Source of the DNA: Thermoplasmatales archaeon
GTDB lineage: Archaea > Thermoplasmatota > E2 > DHVEG-1
DNA: 64,000 bases
Reading direction: 5' to 3'
NCBI GenBank assembly: GCA_030672305.1
Contig: DAOVGR010000080.1
Span: 1-64,000 of the forward strand
Positions 54,348-64,000 of the stretch are shown here, in pieces. Every line of letters starts with the position of its first letter. Position 1 is the first letter of the stretch. A program made the position numbers and the translations under genes. Below the pieces are notes generated by a model. The model ran no database searches and was not told the origin of the DNA. It worked only from the letters and a program-made list of their open reading frames with translations.

Positions 54348-54498
54348 AATCTAAGCGGAAAATAAGAGATTGTATAGATTAAGTTATCGTTTTTGATTTC
54401 CTACTTTATATATTCTAAAAAAGCATAAGTTATATATATTTTGGTATATATGCCATATAATACAATATCATTAGAGAGTGCGGATGGGGATTGCCTAG

Positions 54499-57400
54499 TT
54501 GTTTTCAAATGTAATCACGAAAGTGAAAAGAAAGCAAAAAAAAGAAAAAATTAGTAATTTTAGTGATAATAATTTAGAAAAGAAAAAAAATAACACAATT
54601 GAAAATATCGATGATTTTGTAGATAATCTCATATCTCAGATTAATTCTAATTCAAGTGTGAAATATGCAAGATTCATAACTTTTTTAAGAATTAGACATA
54701 AATTGTCTACTAAAAAGTTACTTTCAATTACAATATCGGTTCTATTACTTTTTGCTGTTATTGCTTCTGCAAGTTCTTTAATCGACTCCAGCAGTTCACC
54801 CGTTGATATGGTAGGAATAGCTGCTGAAGATACTTTGTTATTTCAAAATAATCAAACAGAAAATTTATTGTACAATGATAATTCCACATTTCGTGATAAT
54901 GAGAGTTTGGTTAATAATGAATCTTCTGAACCCAATAGTAATGATACATTACTTATGGATGTTGATATAAATGCGTCTTTGAATAAGACAGTTTTTTATG
55001 TTGGATTAAATCTCACATTAAATTGTGACAAAAGCATTTACAATATAAATGAGACTGTTGTAACTGAAGGAACGGTTAGTTATAACAATTCGATGATAAA
55101 CACATATGTTAATATTTTAAGGACTAGCCCAAGTTATAATTTGTCTGAAAACTTAACAATCCTGGATGGAAGATTTATTTATGAATTTGTTCCAATTGAG
55201 AGTGGTAGTTATATTATACAAGCCAGCATTTCTTATTTGAATGAGAGTGTCGAGGAGGGATTAGTTTTTGATGTTTTGGATGAACCTGTTGAGAATATTT
55301 CGAAGAACGTTTCTTACTTAAGTGTTTGGGATGATTCTGATTATCAGATTGTGTTTGTTGGGGAGCAGGTTACTTTTTTCGCGAATTATTCCGGGTTTAA
55401 TGGTAGTATTTTGAATGCTAGTTGTCTGATTTCGTTTAATGTTGGTGGTTGGTCTTCTCCTGTTGAGATGAGTTATGTTAATGGTTTTTATATAATTCAT
55501 AGGTCTTTCAGTGTTGCTGGTTCTTATCAGTTTAGAGTGTCCTGTTCTGCTGATGGATTTGAAACTAAATCTGTAATAGATAGCTTTGTTGTTTCCGAGG
55601 CAGTTACTGACGTTACTGAGGTTTCAATTGTTTATCCGAAAAGTGATGAAAATGTTCATGTTTTGCCTGGTACTAGTTTTTATGTTGAGAGAACAATTAA
55701 TGGACCTCGTGGAATAAATGCTGTTTTTGCTCCTCTGTTTTCGGATGGTTTAACGGTTGAGAAATTTGAGATCATTAAACATAATACTTCTAATGGAAGG
55801 ATTTTAGAAATTGTGAGAGATGTTACACCTCAAGCATTTATTGCTAGTAAGGGATTGTCTATTGTCGAGAGAAGGATTGATAATTTACGTGAGAATTTAC
55901 CAGCAAATGTGAAACAGCTGAACCGTGTTTCTTATTCTGAGTCATTTAATTTAGATGGTCCAGTAACTATCAGAGTTTGGTTTAAAGCTCCTAGCTGGGA
56001 GGACATTATATCCGGAAGTAAGCCATCATCAGGAAAAATAAGTTACCTCACATTTGCTAATGATGAAAGTGATGGATTTGATTTTGAAAGTAGTACCTGG
56101 TGGAATTCAAACTGGGGTAAACGTAAGCTTATCACAATTAATTCTTCTCAGGTCGCTGCTGATCTTACCAACTTTCCTATTCTTGTTAACATTACAGATA
56201 CTGATTTACGTGATTATGCGCAGAATGATGGTGATGATGTTGCTTTTGTTCTATATTCGGATAATACTACTAAGCTTAATCATGAAATAGAATTGTACAA
56301 TGGTTCAACTGGTGAGCTTTTTACTTGGATAAATGTTACCAGTCTTAGCAGTAGTAGTGATACGAAGATTTGGATGTACTATAACAATAGTGGCAGTAGT
56401 AATCAGCAGAACCCAACAGGTGTATGGGACTCAAATTATACGGGAGTATGGCATCTTAATGATTTAGTAACCGATGAAGTAACATCAGGAACACATGTCG
56501 ACTCGACAGTTAATGGAAATAATGGATCTCAAAATAACAACGATGACGTCTTAGGCTTAATTGGAGGAGCACAAGATTTTGATGGTGATGATTACATTAA
56601 TATTGCCAGTACATCCAGTTTACAATTCACTACTGGGATAACACTATCGGGCTGGATCAGGCTTAGAACCTTTGGCGCTGGTAGTGATGTCGATCCGATT
56701 CTGCGAAAAGGTGAAGCTAATCCTAATAATTATCAGCTTATGATAGATGATAATTTGCCTCAATTTTTCTTAAATGGTGGTGATGGAGACGCCATCATCG
56801 GTACTACTGCTCTAATAGCAAATACTTGGTATTATATTGTGGGTACTTGGGAATCCGGTGGATCTCGCATAGTTTATCGTAACGGTGTTCAAGATGGTAC
56901 TGGCACATTCACTGGCCCAATTCCTACAGACACCAGAGACCTATATATCGGCGGTAGAGCCGGTACTGATAGCATTAATGGTTATCTCGACGAAGTACGT
57001 GCTTCAAATATTGTAAGAAATGCCAGCTGGATAAGTACAACCTATAATACAGTGACGAATACAAGTACATTCATAAGTGTTGGAAGTGAGGAATATAATA
57101 CAAACACATCAGTTAATACGATTTCACCTTATAATGTGACTTACTCACCTTATATTATTACTGCAACAGGAGCAAATGGTTTGGACAATGTCACACTCTA
57201 CTACCGCTATTCAATAGACAACTCAAGCTGGGGTAGCAATGTTTCTTGGAATAACAATAGTAATCCTGATACAGAATCACCATGGCAATGGAGTTTTAAT
57301 TTCTCAAACGGCACAGGCTATTATGAGTTTTATAGTATCGGTAACAAATCTGGTTTTTCTGATGAATCAGCACCTAGTAGTGCTGATGCAATTTGTTATT

Positions 57401-60400
57401 TTAATGAAAGTCTTAATACTCCCCCAGATATAGCTCTCATAAACCCGCAACCCAATGGAACAATAGATGTAAGTCCGCTTCCGATATGCAAGGTTTGGGC
57501 AAATGATAGTGATGGTGATACATTAACAGTTTATTGGTATGAGAATACTACTGGAAGCTGGTTTTTAAGAAATACAAACAATAGTATTAGTGCAAATTCT
57601 GTTGTTAGCTATAAATTTATGGAATTTAGCAATTATTCTACTACATATTGGTGGAAGGTCGCAATAAATGACAGCGTTGACAATACCACTGCATATTTTT
57701 ATTTTACAACCGAGCCTATCAGTACCTCAGTTGATTTCATCACCCCGTATAATATAACGACATCACCATTAACTATAACTGCTACCGGTGATTCTGTATT
57801 AGATAACGTTACATTGTATTACCGATGGAGTCAAGACAATATTACTTGGGAGATGGGCTCAGGAAACATAAATTGGTCGTCCGAACTATTAACCAATCCT
57901 GGATTCGAAACTGGAGATACAACAGGTTGGACAAATGGTGGCGGAGGTACAATGACAGTCGGTACAGATTGTCCCTGGGGCACAGAATCTCCTTATGAAG
58001 GTACATATTATTCATATTGGTTGCTTGCAGGTGAGAATGTAAATGCTTATGCTTATCAGAATGTGAGCCTGGATAGTTATGCTAGTTATATTGATGCAGG
58101 TGAGGCAAAAATAAATGTGACAGGTTGGCTTGTTTCTGATGAATATAATGTACCTGTATATGATGAGTTCTATATGAATGTCAGATTTTATAATGCTTCA
58201 AATGAGAATATGAGTGGTTGTTGGTATGAGTCGGGTGGAACTAATCCTATATCTCAGGGGAGTGGAAATAATGTTGATGATTGGGCTATATATGGCATCA
58301 CAAACTATACTATTCCTACAGAAACAAGAAAAGTACAGGTTAGTTACTTTACATGGGAATATACTCCCCCCTCAACCTGGTACGATGCAGGTTCAGCAGA
58401 CAACTTTTCAATAAAAGTTGGAATTGAAGATTATAATTGGACTGAGTTTGGAACAGATTCGAATTACCCTTGGAGCTGGGATTTTAACTTCCCAAACGGT
58501 ACTGGTTATTATGAATTCTATATTACAGGAAATAAATCAGGGTCACCTAACGAAACAACTCCAGATAATGCTGATGCTATCTGTAAATTCAACAGGCAAC
58601 CAACAATTACCAATGAAGGTCCAAACAATGGAAGCACTGATATATCGCTTACCCCGCAGATGAATATAACAGTAAATGATCCTGATGAAGATACTATGAC
58701 TATTACCTGGTACAGCAACAGTAGTGGTACTTGGCAGGTTTTCGGAACAAATTCCAGCGTCGTCAACGGAACTTATCACCAGATAAACACAAACTTTAGC
58801 TCGACTGGAAAAACCTACTGGTGGTATGTAACCGTTAATGATGGATTAGATACTAATACCAGTGCAACCTTCTATTTCACTACAACAGAAGCTGCACCAC
58901 CACAAGTAACCACCAATTCATCGACTGGTGTCGAAGAAACTAACGCGACATTATGGGGATACCTCTACGACGATGGAGGAGAATCGTGTACTGTCCGATT
59001 CGAATATGGAACAACAACTAGCTATGGAACAAATACGACGAATCAGACAAAAAATACAAATGATGAATTCTCTGCTGGTATAAGTAGTCTTACGCCAGGA
59101 CAACTCTATCACTACCGAGCATTTGCAAACAACACCTATGGCTCAGATATAGGTAGTGACTTAACATTTCTAACAAAACCACAACCTCCAACAAGCCTAA
59201 CTGCACAAGCAAACAATAGCGCAACTATCTTTCTCACATGGATCATAGGAACAGGAGCAAACAACACCTACATAGAACGAAACACATCCAGTAGTTGGTC
59301 ACGAGGAGAAGGGACAGAAATCTTTAATGGTACAGCTGCACTTTATGAAGATTCTGGACTTACACAGGGGACTACTTACTACTATCAAGCATGGAGTTAT
59401 TCTACCTGGACAGATGGCTTAACACTTTTCCAATGGTCAGACAACAATGCAAGTGATAGCAACACAACAAATTATAGACCAACAAGCACTCCTATCAACC
59501 CTGCAAATGCATCAACAGATGTGAGTCTGCAGCCTACTTGTCAAATATGGGCAAATGATACAGATGGAGATACACTAACTGTTTATTGGTATGAAAACTC
59601 AACATCATCATGGATACTCAGACAAACCAATACCAGCGTATCAGCAAACTCAACCGTGAATTGGACGTTTACACAGGCGAGTGCATATGGTATTACTTAT
59701 TGGTGGAAGCTCGCAGTAAATGATACAGTAGACAACATCTCTTCTGTGTATCATTTTACAACAGAATCAATAAATACATCCGTTGATCCAATTAGCCCAT
59801 ATTTAATATCAACATCCCCACTTACCATAAATGTCACTGGTGATTCAGGCTTAGATAAAGTTACGCTATGGTATCGCTATTCACCTAATAACTTCTCATG
59901 GTGGAATACAAATTGGTCTAGTAGAAAGCCAATCAATCTAAATGTTTCATCTGGAACTACGCCAGAAAACTACACGGTTTTATTAAATATCTCTTATGAT
60001 ACAATTATGCAATCTGATTTCAATGATCTCCGATTTATTAGATATAGTGACAATATAACCGAACTTGACTTTTGGATTGAAGATAAAAGCAATGGAAACT
60101 GGGCATCAGTATGGATAGAAATAAGAAATAATATTACCACAACAAATCAAACCCATACATGGATGTATTATGGAAATCCTTCAGCGGGATCAAATTCAAA
60201 TGGAACAGCGACCTTTGAGTTCTTTGATGATTTCCCGGGAACGAGTTTAGACACGAGTACATGGTCAGCAACTGGTAGTTATTCAGTTAATGATGGTATT
60301 ACTATTACTACTGGAAGCATATATACAGATTCTACAGTGGCGTCTTCTCCTCAAAATTTAACATTTGAAATGAAGGCTTATTATTCGGGCTCAGATGCAA

Positions 60401-61395
60401 GTTATTCGGGTCTTGAGATTGCGGATGCGCAATCCACATCTGGAGGAAATGGCGGAGCAAATGCATTGGCCTATCATATGACAGATAGTGGCGGCCAAGA
60501 TATAACTTTGTGGGGAGCTGATGGAACTGTATCTTCTTATAACATAGTTAGCGGTGGGTCGTTAACTCCTAACCCAACATTAAATACTGATTATATCTTT
60601 GGTTACTCATTTTATGACAGTTCTCAGATAAGCTACTTCTACCAAAACCTCGAATATAGTGATATTGATAGGGCAACTTACAGCGGAACTTGGAGTGATC
60701 CGTTTTATCTATGGTTAGGCTATTTCACTGGAAGCTCTGCTGGGGGAACAAACATTGATGATATAACTGTATCATGGGTTCGAATCCGTAAATATACCTC
60801 TTCAGAGCCAACATATTATATCGGCGAAGAAGCCTGGATGGAATGGAGTGATATAAATAATCCTGATACAAGTAGCCCATGGAGCTGGAGTTTTAACTTC
60901 CCCAATGGAACTGGGTATTATGAGTTTTATAGTATTGGTAATAAATCTGGTTCAGTTAATGAAACACCTCCATCTTTTGTTGATGCAATATGTCAATATG
61001 CTACTACAACTATTAATGTTACACCATCACAATGGGATGTAGGTACTACGACAATTGGTAATTATAATTACTCAACATCAAATAATTATTTCAACCTAAC
61101 AAATAATGGAACTGTTATTCTAAATATAGAAATCAAGGCAAGCAATGCTACCAATGAGACAACTGGAGCCTATTGGAATCTCAGCGATACACCAGGTTTT
61201 AATAACTATAGTTTACAATATAATAAGAGTGGTGATGTAAGCTGGACTAATATAAACCTTACATACGATTCTTTTGTCAATAGCCTAGGTATTGGTTTAT
61301 GGGATACATTTGATTTGAACATATTCATGGCTACTACGTCCACCAAAAGCGATCCAATGACCTTAACAGTTACATTCAAATCAGTAGTAGTATAA
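54499..61395 (+). CDS. Giant modular surface protein (DUF2341, LamG, repeated beta modules)
   Basis: A 2298-aa protein. A basic cytoplasmic head of about 70 residues leads to one TM helix (about 74-96), with the rest outside. In order: Ig-like region; a conserved block (VPGTSFYVERT-like to WFKAPSWEDI, about 390-525); a DUF2341 domain (about 532-640, TWWNSNWGKRK); a LamG/concanavalin-like domain (about 690-855); repeated modules of the ISPYNVTYSPYIITATG type (near 872, 1078 and 1761) and of the DVSxxPxxxxWANDxDGDTL type (near 990, 1385 and 1675), fibronectin-like segments (about 1470-1600), a second DUF2341 domain (about 1799-1900) and a Ser/Thr/Asn-rich end. Many N-x-S/T sequons suggest heavy N-glycosylation. 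The start is TTG 54499 (GTG 54526 is an alternative). It probably binds carbohydrate or mediates adhesion. Confidence 0.8.
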   Translation: MFSNVITKVKRKQKKEKISNFSDNNLEKKKNNTIENIDDFVDNLISQINSNSSVKYARFITFLRIRHKLSTKKLLSITISVLLLFAVIASASSLIDSSSSPVDMVGIAAEDTLLFQNNQTENLLYNDNSTFRDNESLVNNESSEPNSNDTLLMDVDINASLNKTVFYVGLNLTLNCDKSIYNINETVVTEGTVSYNNSMINTYVNILRTSPSYNLSENLTILDGRFIYEFVPIESGSYIIQASISYLNESVEEGLVFDVLDEPVENISKNVSYLSVWDDSDYQIVFVGEQVTFFANYSGFNGSILNASCLISFNVGGWSSPVEMSYVNGFYIIHRSFSVAGSYQFRVSCSADGFETKSVIDSFVVSEAVTDVTEVSIVYPKSDENVHVLPGTSFYVERTINGPRGINAVFAPLFSDGLTVEKFEIIKHNTSNGRILEIVRDVTPQAFIASKGLSIVERRIDNLRENLPANVKQLNRVSYSESFNLDGPVTIRVWFKAPSWEDIISGSKPSSGKISYLTFANDESDGFDFESSTWWNSNWGKRKLITINSSQVAADLTNFPILVNITDTDLRDYAQNDGDDVAFVLYSDNTTKLNHEIELYNGSTGELFTWINVTSLSSSSDTKIWMYYNNSGSSNQQNPTGVWDSNYTGVWHLNDLVTDEVTSGTHVDSTVNGNNGSQNNNDDVLGLIGGAQDFDGDDYINIASTSSLQFTTGITLSGWIRLRTFGAGSDVDPILRKGEANPNNYQLMIDDNLPQFFLNGGDGDAIIGTTALIANTWYYIVGTWESGGSRIVYRNGVQDGTGTFTGPIPTDTRDLYIGGRAGTDSINGYLDEVRASNIVRNASWISTTYNTVTNTSTFISVGSEEYNTNTSVNTISPYNVTYSPYIITATGANGLDNVTLYYRYSIDNSSWGSNVSWNNNSNPDTESPWQWSFNFSNGTGYYEFYSIGNKSGFSDESAPSSADAICYFNESLNTPPDIALINPQPNGTIDVSPLPICKVWANDSDGDTLTVYWYENTTGSWFLRNTNNSISANSVVSYKFMEFSNYSTTYWWKVAINDSVDNTTAYFYFTTEPISTSVDFITPYNITTSPLTITATGDSVLDNVTLYYRWSQDNITWEMGSGNINWSSELLTNPGFETGDTTGWTNGGGGTMTVGTDCPWGTESPYEGTYYSYWLLAGENVNAYAYQNVSLDSYASYIDAGEAKINVTGWLVSDEYNVPVYDEFYMNVRFYNASNENMSGCWYESGGTNPISQGSGNNVDDWAIYGITNYTIPTETRKVQVSYFTWEYTPPSTWYDAGSADNFSIKVGIEDYNWTEFGTDSNYPWSWDFNFPNGTGYYEFYITGNKSGSPNETTPDNADAICKFNRQPTITNEGPNNGSTDISLTPQMNITVNDPDEDTMTITWYSNSSGTWQVFGTNSSVVNGTYHQINTNFSSTGKTYWWYVTVNDGLDTNTSATFYFTTTEAAPPQVTTNSSTGVEETNATLWGYLYDDGGESCTVRFEYGTTTSYGTNTTNQTKNTNDEFSAGISSLTPGQLYHYRAFANNTYGSDIGSDLTFLTKPQPPTSLTAQANNSATIFLTWIIGTGANNTYIERNTSSSWSRGEGTEIFNGTAALYEDSGLTQGTTYYYQAWSYSTWTDGLTLFQWSDNNASDSNTTNYRPTSTPINPANASTDVSLQPTCQIWANDTDGDTLTVYWYENSTSSWILRQTNTSVSANSTVNWTFTQASAYGITYWWKLAVNDTVDNISSVYHFTTESINTSVDPISPYLISTSPLTINVTGDSGLDKVTLWYRYSPNNFSWWNTNWSSRKPINLNVSSGTTPENYTVLLNISYDTIMQSDFNDLRFIRYSDNITELDFWIEDKSNGNWASVWIEIRNNITTTNQTHTWMYYGNPSAGSNSNGTATFEFFDDFPGTSLDTSTWSATGSYSVNDGITITTGSIYTDSTVASSPQNLTFEMKAYYSGSDASYSGLEIADAQSTSGGNGGANALAYHMTDSGGQDITLWGADGTVSSYNIVSGGSLTPNPTLNTDYIFGYSFYDSSQISYFYQNLEYSDIDRATYSGTWSDPFYLWLGYFTGSSAGGTNIDDITVSWVRIRKYTSSEPTYYIGEEAWMEWSDINNPDTSSPWSWSFNFPNGTGYYEFYSIGNKSGSVNETPPSFVDAICQYATTTINVTPSQWDVGTTTIGNYNYSTSNNYFNLTNNGTVILNIEIKASNATNETTGAYWNLSDTPGFNNYSLQYNKSGDVSWTNINLTYDSFVNSLGIGLWDTFDLNIFMATTSTKSDPMTLTVTFKSVVV

Positions 61396-61483
61396 TATCT
61401 TTTAATTTTATTAACTTAATTTTTTCATTATTGTAATTAAGATTTTCTGGACTATGATTTTAATTAAACTATTTTCAAATAAA

Positions 61484-61688
61484 GTCAAATATACAGCTGA
61501 TTTATATGATTAGTAATATAAACATTTATAAATTACTTTTATTATGTCATATTGAGCTAGAGAGGTAAATTTTCTCGAGAGGATAATTAAGAATTTATCG
61601 TTCTACATCAAGTCGTCAAATATACAGCTGATTTATATGATATGTTATATAAACATTTATAAACTAATTTTTATTTCAAAACATTGAG
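61484..61688 (+). repeat. Duplicated promoter region (131-base offset)
   Basis: Two copies of a roughly 73-base unit occur at 61484-61556 and 61615-61688. The first 27 bases (GTCAAATATACAGC onward) are identical, as is TATAAACATTTATAAA (61517-61532 and 61648-61663), a TATA box. Both end in ATTGAG. The second copy places transcription at the start of the zinc-ribbon gene; the first is followed by a short non-coding stretch containing GAGAGG repeats. Upstream (61396-61483) the sequence is T-rich, consistent with the terminator of the giant gene. Confidence 0.75.
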
Positions 61689-61692
61689 AGGG

Positions 61693-62325
61693 ATGGTTAA
61701 CTCACGACGAGGGGTAGATATCAAATTATTGCATTTTTGCCCACATTGTCATAGCAGTAAAATTGTCAAAAATGGGTACCATCATCATGGTAAATTACAA
61801 TTTTTTTGTAATTCCTGTCGTAAATATTTTTATGAAGATTCCGCAAAAGGTTATCCACCTACTTCTATCCCATTTCCTGTCATTACTTATGTTTTGTATT
61901 TCCGCAGGAGAGTTCCTGAGTTTTCTAATATGAGAAAGTACAGGAAGTTTGTCAACTATTGGTTACAATATCTTAAGGTTAGTGACCAAGAAGTTTCTAG
62001 GCAAACTATTCATCATTGGATTAAGAATTATGATAAATTTCTTGATAAGGTTATTAGTTTTTCTGAGTCTCGTGATTTTGTTAGGCAGCGGGTTTCTGAG
62101 GTTCTTCCTGTTCCCATTCGTAAACCCATTCCTTATAGAAGAACCTTGAAAGTTTTGGAAAAGAAATTTGGTAAGGCATACTGTATTGGTTTGGTTCGTC
62201 ACAATCCTGTTTTTTTCCAGGATTTAGTGGACATCGTTAGTAAGCATGGTGTGTTTATTTGGGAGTTTCTTGAGAATGAATTTGGAGGTGGCAGCGTAAG
62301 CTATCGACCCTTACCTGTAGGCTAG
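61693..62325 (+). CDS. Transposase-derived zinc-ribbon DNA-binding protein
   Basis: A 210-aa protein with an InsA/IS1-type zinc ribbon (FCPHCHSSKIVKNGYHHHGKLQFFCNSCRKYF, four Cys in two CxxC pairs) followed by a helix-turn-helix-like region (VSDQEVSRQTIHHWIKNY). The DDE catalytic residues of a transposase are not visible, and there are no flanking terminal repeats or target duplications, so it is probably a domesticated regulator. The ATG at 61693 is preferred over a TTG at 61684; it lies about 30 bases after the TATA and would be nearly leaderless. It separates two paralogous giant surface-protein genes, 21 bases before the second. Confidence 0.6.
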   Translation: MVNSRRGVDIKLLHFCPHCHSSKIVKNGYHHHGKLQFFCNSCRKYFYEDSAKGYPPTSIPFPVITYVLYFRRRVPEFSNMRKYRKFVNYWLQYLKVSDQEVSRQTIHHWIKNYDKFLDKVISFSESRDFVRQRVSEVLPVPIRKPIPYRRTLKVLEKKFGKAYCIGLVRHNPVFFQDLVDIVSKHGVFIWEFLENEFGGGSVSYRPLPVG

Positions 62326-62346
62326 TAGAGCAGAAAGTGATATGAA

Positions 62347-64000
62347 ATGTTAGAGGAAGATTGGATTCAGAAATCATCCTGGATTCCCGGTGAGACTGAT
62401 AGCGATAGCTATAAGTCTCGTAGTTTTGAGAAGTCTTCCTCCAATATTGATTATCTTGTTGATCGTGTTCTCGCTAAACATTACGGAAGAAAAATCTTTA
62501 ATGGCACTAAGAGACGGCTCCCTTGGAAGCAGGTTTTAGGTGTTGTTTTAGCTTTGATCATTGTTTTAGCTGCCGTTCCTTATGTGTTGTCTCCGTTGTA
62601 TGGTGATTTTGGTTCTGATGTTTCTATTAGTTTGGATCCAGCTGATGTACATTTGAATGAGACTTTGTTTGTGAACATGAGTATTCCTTTAAGTTATAAT
62701 ATTACAACTGTAGTTGCTGATATGGCTGGTGTTGATAATGTTAGTTTAGAGCTAGTTGATAATAGTACTGGTTTGCATTTGTGGGGTGGTATTTGGTTAG
62801 TGGATGATATTGTTCCTGGTGAGCATGTTATAACTATTAGTGCATGGGATGATGTTAATGGTTCTTATTTTGCAGGTACCAGAATGAGTATTCTTCCTGA
62901 TGAAGAACCGGTTGATAATGAGACTTCTGATCCTATTGGAAATGATACAATAACCCCAGATGAAGATGATAATAGGACAGAAAATGATACAATTGTTCCA
63001 GTTGTTTTAAATCTTACATTAGGAGCTGATAAGAATTCTTATTTTGTAAATGAAACCATTTCCATCTTTGGCGTAGTTGCTTATAATGACTCGTTGATAG
63101 ATACATCTGTTGATCTTTTTATATTTGGTCCTGGTTTGAATTCTTCTGAGAATCTTAATGTGTCATTTGGTATGTTTAATTATGAGTTTATTCCTGTTGT
63201 AGCTGGGGAATATTTTGTTTTGACGAATGTATCTTATGAAAATGAATATATCTTGGAGCATCTAACGTTATATGTTATTGCTAAATCTGGTGAGAACGTT
63301 TCTAAGGATGTTTCTGAGGTTTCTATAATTGACCCGAAGGAAAAGGAGGAGGTTTATGTTGTTCCTGGTACTACTTTCTTTGTTGAGAGAACCATTATTA
63401 GTTTGAATAGTTCCAGTGCTATTTTTGCTCCAATGTTTTCTAGTGGTTTATCTATTGAGAGATTTGAAATTATTGGTGATAATAGACCTTCTGGTCGTTC
63501 AGTGAGTTTATTCGATGAAGAAAATCCAAAAGTGTTTGCTGCTGGAAGAGGTGAATCCATAATTGAGAGGCGCATTGATATTTTACGTAATAGATTACCA
63601 TTGGGCGTTAGAAGTTTGGATAGTATTTCTTATTCCAGATCTGTTAGATTAGATGGTCCCATAACTGTTCGTATTTGGTTTAAGGCCCCAAGTTGGGAGG
63701 ATATAAAATCAGGTCAATCACCTTCCTCTGGTAAAATAAGTTATTTGTTATTATCAGCTGATGGTAATGATTTTGATTTTGAAGGTAGTACTTGGTGGAA
63801 TTCCAGCTGGGGATATCGAAAACTCATAACAGTTGACTCCAACCAAGTTGAAGCAGATCTAACAAACTTTCCAATACTTGTTTACAACTCATCAGACAGT
63901 CATCTAGCAAACTATGCCCAAGACGACGGAGGTGACATCGCATTTATACAATACTCAGATAATACAACACAATTCAATCATGAAATCGCACTATACAACA
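62347..64000 (+). CDS. Second giant surface protein, paralogue, cut by window end
   Basis: The first 551 codons of a protein related to the 2298-aa one. It begins with a short cytoplasmic head (LEEDWIQKSSWIPGETDSDS), a TM helix (about residues 65-90), an Asn/Asp-rich Ig-like region and the same conserved block (VPGTTFFVERT, IRRIDILRNRLP-like, WFKAPSWEDIKSGQ). The DUF2341 domain then starts (TWWNSSWGYRKLITV) and continues to the window edge. The block and DUF2341 start are clearly homologous to residues about 390-640 of the first protein, while the head and TM sequence differ. An upstream ATG at 62342 is followed by a stop at once and was rejected. Confidence 0.85.
   Translation, partial: MLEEDWIQKSSWIPGETDSDSYKSRSFEKSSSNIDYLVDRVLAKHYGRKIFNGTKRRLPWKQVLGVVLALIIVLAAVPYVLSPLYGDFGSDVSISLDPADVHLNETLFVNMSIPLSYNITTVVADMAGVDNVSLELVDNSTGLHLWGGIWLVDDIVPGEHVITISAWDDVNGSYFAGTRMSILPDEEPVDNETSDPIGNDTITPDEDDNRTENDTIVPVVLNLTLGADKNSYFVNETISIFGVVAYNDSLIDTSVDLFIFGPGLNSSENLNVSFGMFNYEFIPVVAGEYFVLTNVSYENEYILEHLTLYVIAKSGENVSKDVSEVSIIDPKEKEEVYVVPGTTFFVERTIISLNSSSAIFAPMFSSGLSIERFEIIGDNRPSGRSVSLFDEENPKVFAAGRGESIIERRIDILRNRLPLGVRSLDSISYSRSVRLDGPITVRIWFKAPSWEDIKSGQSPSSGKISYLLLSADGNDFDFEGSTWWNSSWGYRKLITVDSNQVEADLTNFPILVYNSSDSHLANYAQDDGGDIAFIQYSDNTTQFNHEIALYN

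Follow-up and report, generated by a model that had tools for sequence, protein, structure and literature searches.

The window, that is, the whole 64,000-nucleotide stretch of DNA analyzed here, makes up nearly all of contig C38 (64,119 bp) of an archaeal genome of 2.8 Mb in 86 contigs. At its right end are found, in this order, the gene for surface protein 1, a gap of 288 bp, a gene encoding a zinc-ribbon protein (ZR), and the gene for surface protein 2, which starts 21 bp after the ZR stop codon and is cut by the contig end at 64119, 119 bases beyond the window. The features of this region are as follows.

54499 to 61395, + strand: surface protein 1, 2298 aa, with an N-terminal transmembrane segment, LamG-like and DUF2341 regions and its own promoter without a doubled element; purL-purS locus
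61484 to 61510, + strand: distal upstream element, putative operator 1, GTCAAATATACAGCTGATTTATATGAT (from sequence comparison)
61525 to 61532, + strand: distal TATA box P1, TTTATAAA (from sequence)
61551 to 61575, + strand: degraded copy, behind P1, of the start region of the ZR gene, TTGAGCTAGAGAGG..., without an ATG (from sequence)
61615 to 61641, + strand: proximal upstream element, putative operator 2, a 27-mer identical to the distal one
61656 to 61663, + strand: proximal TATA box P2, TTTATAAA, ~30 bp 5' of the conserved ATG
61693 to 62325, + strand: ZR gene, zinc ribbon plus helical/HTH protein, 210 aa (longest ORF 61684-62325)
61738 to 61833, + strand: zinc-ribbon coding region, C-x2-C ... 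C-x2-C, IS1/IS1595 N-terminal type (profile match)
61873 to 62040, + strand: helical, HTH-like region, KGYPP...VSRQTIHHWIKNY (sequence motif and model)
61961 to 62620, + strand: gene-conversion tract common to the C25 cassette, 78-100% nucleotide identity, flanks ~60-75%
62347 to 64000 (window end), + strand: surface protein 2, second gene of the putative ZR operon, 551 aa visible within the window

The two surface proteins have in common a block of 321 aa with 49% identity (BLASTP), which in surface protein 2 lies in front of and reaches into DUF2341, while their first 100 residues are only 18-27% alike; the shared block and the differing heads described in the initial annotation were thus both recovered. 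In Pfam searches, surface protein 1 matched DUF2341 with 86.2 bits (cut-off 23.4) and the LamG-like family Laminin_G_3. Surface protein 1 therefore resembles the known DUF2341/LamG-like archaeal surface proteins in both domains and surface protein 2 in the shared block, but the ZR-linked members differ in having a distinct cytoplasmic head of ~35 aa before an NIDYLVDRVLAK motif and the membrane segment. An unusually long cytoplasmic head with a conserved NIDYLVDRVLAK-like motif before the membrane segment (window 62347-62600 and relatives) was also seen in homologues without ZR; this head may serve in export or anchoring.

The start of surface gene 1 (54484-54510) reads ATG GGG ATT GCC TAG TTG TTT TCA, a four-codon ORF whose stop is directly adjacent to the TTG at which the 2298-aa frame begins. 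G002 and G021 share this TAG-TTG arrangement, whereas sense codons run throughout in G001 and other genomes (MGIPRLFS..., MGIISAFS...). Recoding of the TAG at codon 5 as pyrrolysine was rejected because TAG is the normal stop codon of 14 of the 44 ORFs in the window.

The ZR protein, whose start ATG at 61693 is conserved across its homologues, matched the IS1/IS1595 N-terminal zinc-binding domain (NCBIfam NF050000.1) with 41.7 bits against a curated cut-off of 28, a short domain match that was also found in seven of seven relatives. It remained below the Pfam InsA cut-off (16 versus 26.1) and reached only 32 bits with the full-length IS1 transposase model (cut-off 100). An AlphaFold model (mean pLDDT 71) contained the zinc ribbon followed by helices only, including a transposase-like VSRQTIHHWIKNY segment, and the sequence motif together with the helix pattern points to an HTH. 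No RNase-H/DDE fold was present in the model and no DDE domain was detected with Pfam or NCBIfam profiles; a fold search against the PDB gave no match with E<1, and no viral relatives were found in IMG/VR. Since genomes of the same class also contain full-length transposases that combine a similar front with a DDE domain (L011, L063), a transposase origin of ZR is plausible, while catalysis by ZR is not. ZR thus has the CxxC...CxxC zinc ribbon of IS1/IS1595 transposases above the curated cut-off but differs from them as a solitary protein of 210 aa without DDE, fixed before a surface gene; on the upstream side (61396-61700), no inverted repeats that could be transposon ends were seen. Its ORF is intact and, in the cross-genus comparison, dN was lower than dS wherever dS was unsaturated, which argues for purifying selection across genera. 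Separately, five ORFs of 311-334 aa (L012, L013, L019, L020, L104) combine a transposase-like zinc ribbon and HTH front with a C-terminal region resembling Cas4/RecB-type PD-(D/E)XK nucleases; this likeness is weak (a GHIDILQ...ILDYKP motif, and sub-threshold Pfam PDDEXK_1 matches in three of the five), and the proteins possibly constitute an undescribed mobile-element or defence family.

Upstream of the ZR gene, a 57-nt direct repeat (61484-61540 and 61615-61671) was found with 91% identity between copies and a spacing of exactly 131 bp, confirming the near-identical promoter pair that had been proposed for this site. The self-similarity score was 47, compared with a maximum of 19 among 300 shuffles, and each copy contains the upstream element and the archaeal TATA box TTTATAAA. 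The position of P2 ~30 bp before the conserved ATG suggests a leaderless or short-leader ZR mRNA; since the gene-start copy behind P1 has no ATG, transcripts from P1 would need the P2-proximal ATG for translation. No repeat was found at the promoter of surface gene 1, and no inverted repeats in 61396-61700. A target-site duplication of a transposon was ruled out as the source of the repeats, as both copies are upstream of ZR, and an RNA element or riboswitch between the surface genes was rejected after an Rfam search of the region between the genes yielded only two sub-threshold chance matches.

More zinc-ribbon/surface-protein pairs, for which a search had been suggested initially, do exist: the pairing was found at five loci in four genomes, and in five of five the ZR gene immediately precedes the surface gene on the same strand. 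A second pair in the same genome, on contig C25, has a ZR 79% identical to that of the window and likewise a gap of 21 bp; the other pairs are in G028, G021, and G061, which represent two further genera of the family, with ZR identities of 51-61%. The three named relatives with the cassette are metagenome-assembled Thermoplasmata/Thermoplasmatales genomes, which an alignment scan found after a single-sequence scan of named genomes had yielded none. An SD-like GTGAT precedes the surface ATG at four of the five loci. A class-wide profile search revealed no other close ZR member and two distant ones, C17 (in the same genome as the window) and G062 C117, both beside integrase genes. The C17 paralogue (L023 7295-7948; 34% identity) has, ~150 bp downstream, an archaellum/type IV pilus-like operon with two archaeal flagellin-like genes, a KaiC-type ATPase, two T2SSE, and T2SSF; it also adjoins a divergent integrase and DUF3987 pair and may belong either to the operon or to a mobile element.

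The order purL-purS-surface1-ZR-surface2 is the same in the window and in G021, which belong to different genera; in G021, a small gene with an HEAAHW motif follows surface2, and G028 has the order ZR-surface2-HEAAHW at a site away from purL. A recent ZR insertion, which had been named as an outcome that would speak against the proposed cassette, is ruled out by this cross-genus order; yet G001, from the genus of the window, has surface1 directly followed by the HEAAHW gene, without ZR and surface2 and with the neighbours kept, so the cassette can be lost or gained. From these comparisons, the ZR-surface2 pair is therefore old, and its two genes appear to come and go together. The HEAAHW gene itself is small and convergent, encodes a candidate M50-like metalloprotease, and in three genomes (L021, L022/L108, L099) comes after a surface gene that is either ZR-linked or at the purS locus; beyond it, G028 and G001 have similar series of genes for secreted proteins.

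Comparison of the window with the C25 cassette showed ~60-75% nucleotide identity through the zinc ribbon, 78-100% from 61961 to ~62620, and ~60% thereafter. The high-identity tract runs from the second half of ZR across the junction into surface protein 2, of which it includes the cytoplasmic head and the membrane segment, and dS fell from 0.9-1.9 to 0.14 in the C-terminal part of ZR. The segment 61961-~62620 is a gene-conversion tract, and the ribbon and the promoter elements have stayed distinct despite it. Over residues 1-220, the surface protein of C25 (L003 9830-16579) is like the ZR-linked heads found in the window and in G021, while its residues 250-1550 share mostly 55-86% identity with the body of the G001 purS-locus protein (L099 2997-7883), which has the head type of ZR-less proteins; the alignment marks it as a head/body mosaic produced by a swap between surface genes.

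Such mosaics, and the transposase-type zinc ribbon, would fit the idea that ZR itself recombines DNA, with the repeats as sites at which parts of the surface proteins are swapped or inverted to give phase variation. We consider this very improbable: neither the model nor the profiles show a nuclease fold, be it DDE or another, the repeats do not bound the segments that recombined (the C-terminus of ZR and the head and body of the surface protein), and they are direct and both 5' of ZR, so that inversion or swapping of surface-gene segments through them is impossible. The mosaics follow homology rather than the repeats, and with neither a recombinase fold in the ZR model nor inverted repeats in 61396-61700, the region was negative for these features of a phase-variable locus. 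Homologous recombination, not ZR, is a sufficient explanation of the mosaics. The initial proposal that the zinc-ribbon protein recombines adhesin genes was accordingly not borne out; its idea of a variation cassette survives insofar as homologous recombination has given surface proteins new combinations of head and body and has acted by conversion on parts of the cassettes, though not through ZR.

The doubled promoter was present at four of the four ZR loci that could be read, with offsets of 131, 107, 130, and 110 bp. At the fifth locus (G028), the distal copy falls within a run of N, another gene-start leader copy stands before the proximal promoter, and the proximal promoter and element are without the CGTCAAAT core. 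Nine homologous surface genes without ZR had no doubled promoter (scores of 7-13 versus 47-59 at ZR loci), which rules out tandem promoters as a general trait of these surface genes. The upstream elements are 86-97% identical within a locus and ~48% identical on average between loci. Within a locus, identity was 0.75-1.00 over the element and BRE/TATA only, compared with 0.40-0.66 in the leader and 0.25-0.50 further upstream; because it is limited to the element and BRE/TATA although the leader is also duplicated, it looks like the product of selection rather than of a fresh duplication. Concerted evolution of short tracts could be an alternative cause of the likeness between copies. Each of the three elements searched for, those of the window (up to 3 mismatches), C25 (up to 2), and G021 (up to 3), had exactly two sites in its genome, as expected if a dedicated local factor reads the element. 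The repeated arrangement thus recurs elsewhere, while each repeat sequence is confined to its own locus.

These data also bear on whether ZR is simply a decayed transposase or the passenger of an inserted element, with the doubled promoter having arisen neutrally through duplication and been kept alike by gene conversion. The integrase genes beside the distant ZR relatives (C17, G062 C117), the missing cassette in same-genus G001, and the gene conversion active at the locus would all suit such an origin. We nevertheless regard it as improbable, since the ORF is intact, 51-79% identical among relatives, has dN<dS, and always accompanies a surface gene, the repeat identity ends at the promoter core despite the duplicated leader, and the arrangement is kept in four loci of different sequence.

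We further compared the divergence of the elements with that of the proteins. Element identity correlated with zinc-ribbon identity (r=0.88; Mantel 2/120 permutations, with only five loci) and not with identity of the HTH region (r=-0.45, the same five loci). Without C25, where ribbon and element have both diverged and which contributes most of the signal, the correlation was r=0.56, and we regard co-divergence of element and zinc ribbon as suggestive.

Taken together, these results point to a dedicated autoregulator built from the DNA-binding front of a transposase, rather than a recombination machine, as the most likely nature of the locus. We hypothesize, and consider it reasonably probable, that ZR is a transposase-derived, dedicated transcription factor without a catalytic domain that binds both elements and controls its own ZR-surface2 operon. 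The first gene would encode a factor made from the zinc ribbon and HTH of an IS1/IS1595-like transposase whose catalytic part was lost, and the second gene, 21 bp downstream and presumably co-transcribed, a giant surface protein that has a membrane segment at its N-terminus. The factor would bind a locus-specific element of ~28 bp just upstream of BRE/TATA at each of the two tandem promoters, both of which may be used, and would thereby regulate its own operon. The control of adhesin genes by a domesticated DNA binder, as envisaged in the initial annotation, is therefore supported in its regulatory half by inference from the five loci in four genomes, the doubled promoter at four of four readable loci versus none of nine controls, and the three tested elements present exactly twice in their genomes, and is not supported in its recombinational half.

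The position of the elements immediately upstream of BRE/TATA, as for GvpE sites, favours autoactivation. Repression is the less likely sign: ZR would then be an autorepressor, both elements would be operators that limit the amount of a costly giant protein, and dosage or cooperativity would be all that the second promoter serves. All of the anatomy that favours an autoregulator fits a repressor equally, and negative autoregulation is common among regulators encoded by the first gene of an operon. Archaeal repressors, however, usually overlap TATA/BRE or the start site, and the elements lie where archaeal activators such as GvpE bind; we therefore consider autorepression unlikely.

Several known systems resemble the autoregulator proposed here. 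GvpE, the haloarchaeal gas-vesicle activator, is encoded in the cluster that it regulates and has a 20-nt site adjacent to BRE (PMC4390858), but it is leucine-zipper-like and acts at two divergent promoters, whereas ZR has a zinc ribbon and two tandem promoters in the same direction. TFB-RF1 of Pyrococcus, another archaeal activator, recruits TFB and thereby stimulates the operon to which it belongs (PMC5937170); the proteins are unrelated, and TFB-RF1 has no link to a surface protein. The C (controller) proteins of restriction-modification systems are small autoregulators co-transcribed with their effector and have a dedicated, locus-specific operator (PMC4824078). Here the resemblance is in how the system would work and not in kinship, as C proteins differ in fold and effector and act at bacterial promoters. 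In the literature searched, with subscription journals outside its coverage, no description of the ZR-surface pairing was found.

More tentatively, the ZR-promoter pairs might be orthogonal factor/operator sets, which in the case of the window and C25 stay distinct inside a single genome, and might define separately addressable surface-protein slots, beneath which homologous recombination swaps the giant bodies; the whole would then be an archaeal surface-variation system derived from a domesticated transposase DNA-binding domain, a reading that we think has perhaps one chance in a few of being correct.

To our knowledge, few archaeal transcriptional activators have been characterised, and little is known about how archaea control their giant surface proteins. 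The four natural ZR/element sets of different sequence provide a ready test of co-divergence between a zinc-ribbon factor and its site, and the head/body mosaics show how surface proteins diversify while the control module is kept. If the proposed autoregulation is true, the DNA-binding front of a transposase can turn into the private regulator of one archaeal operon.
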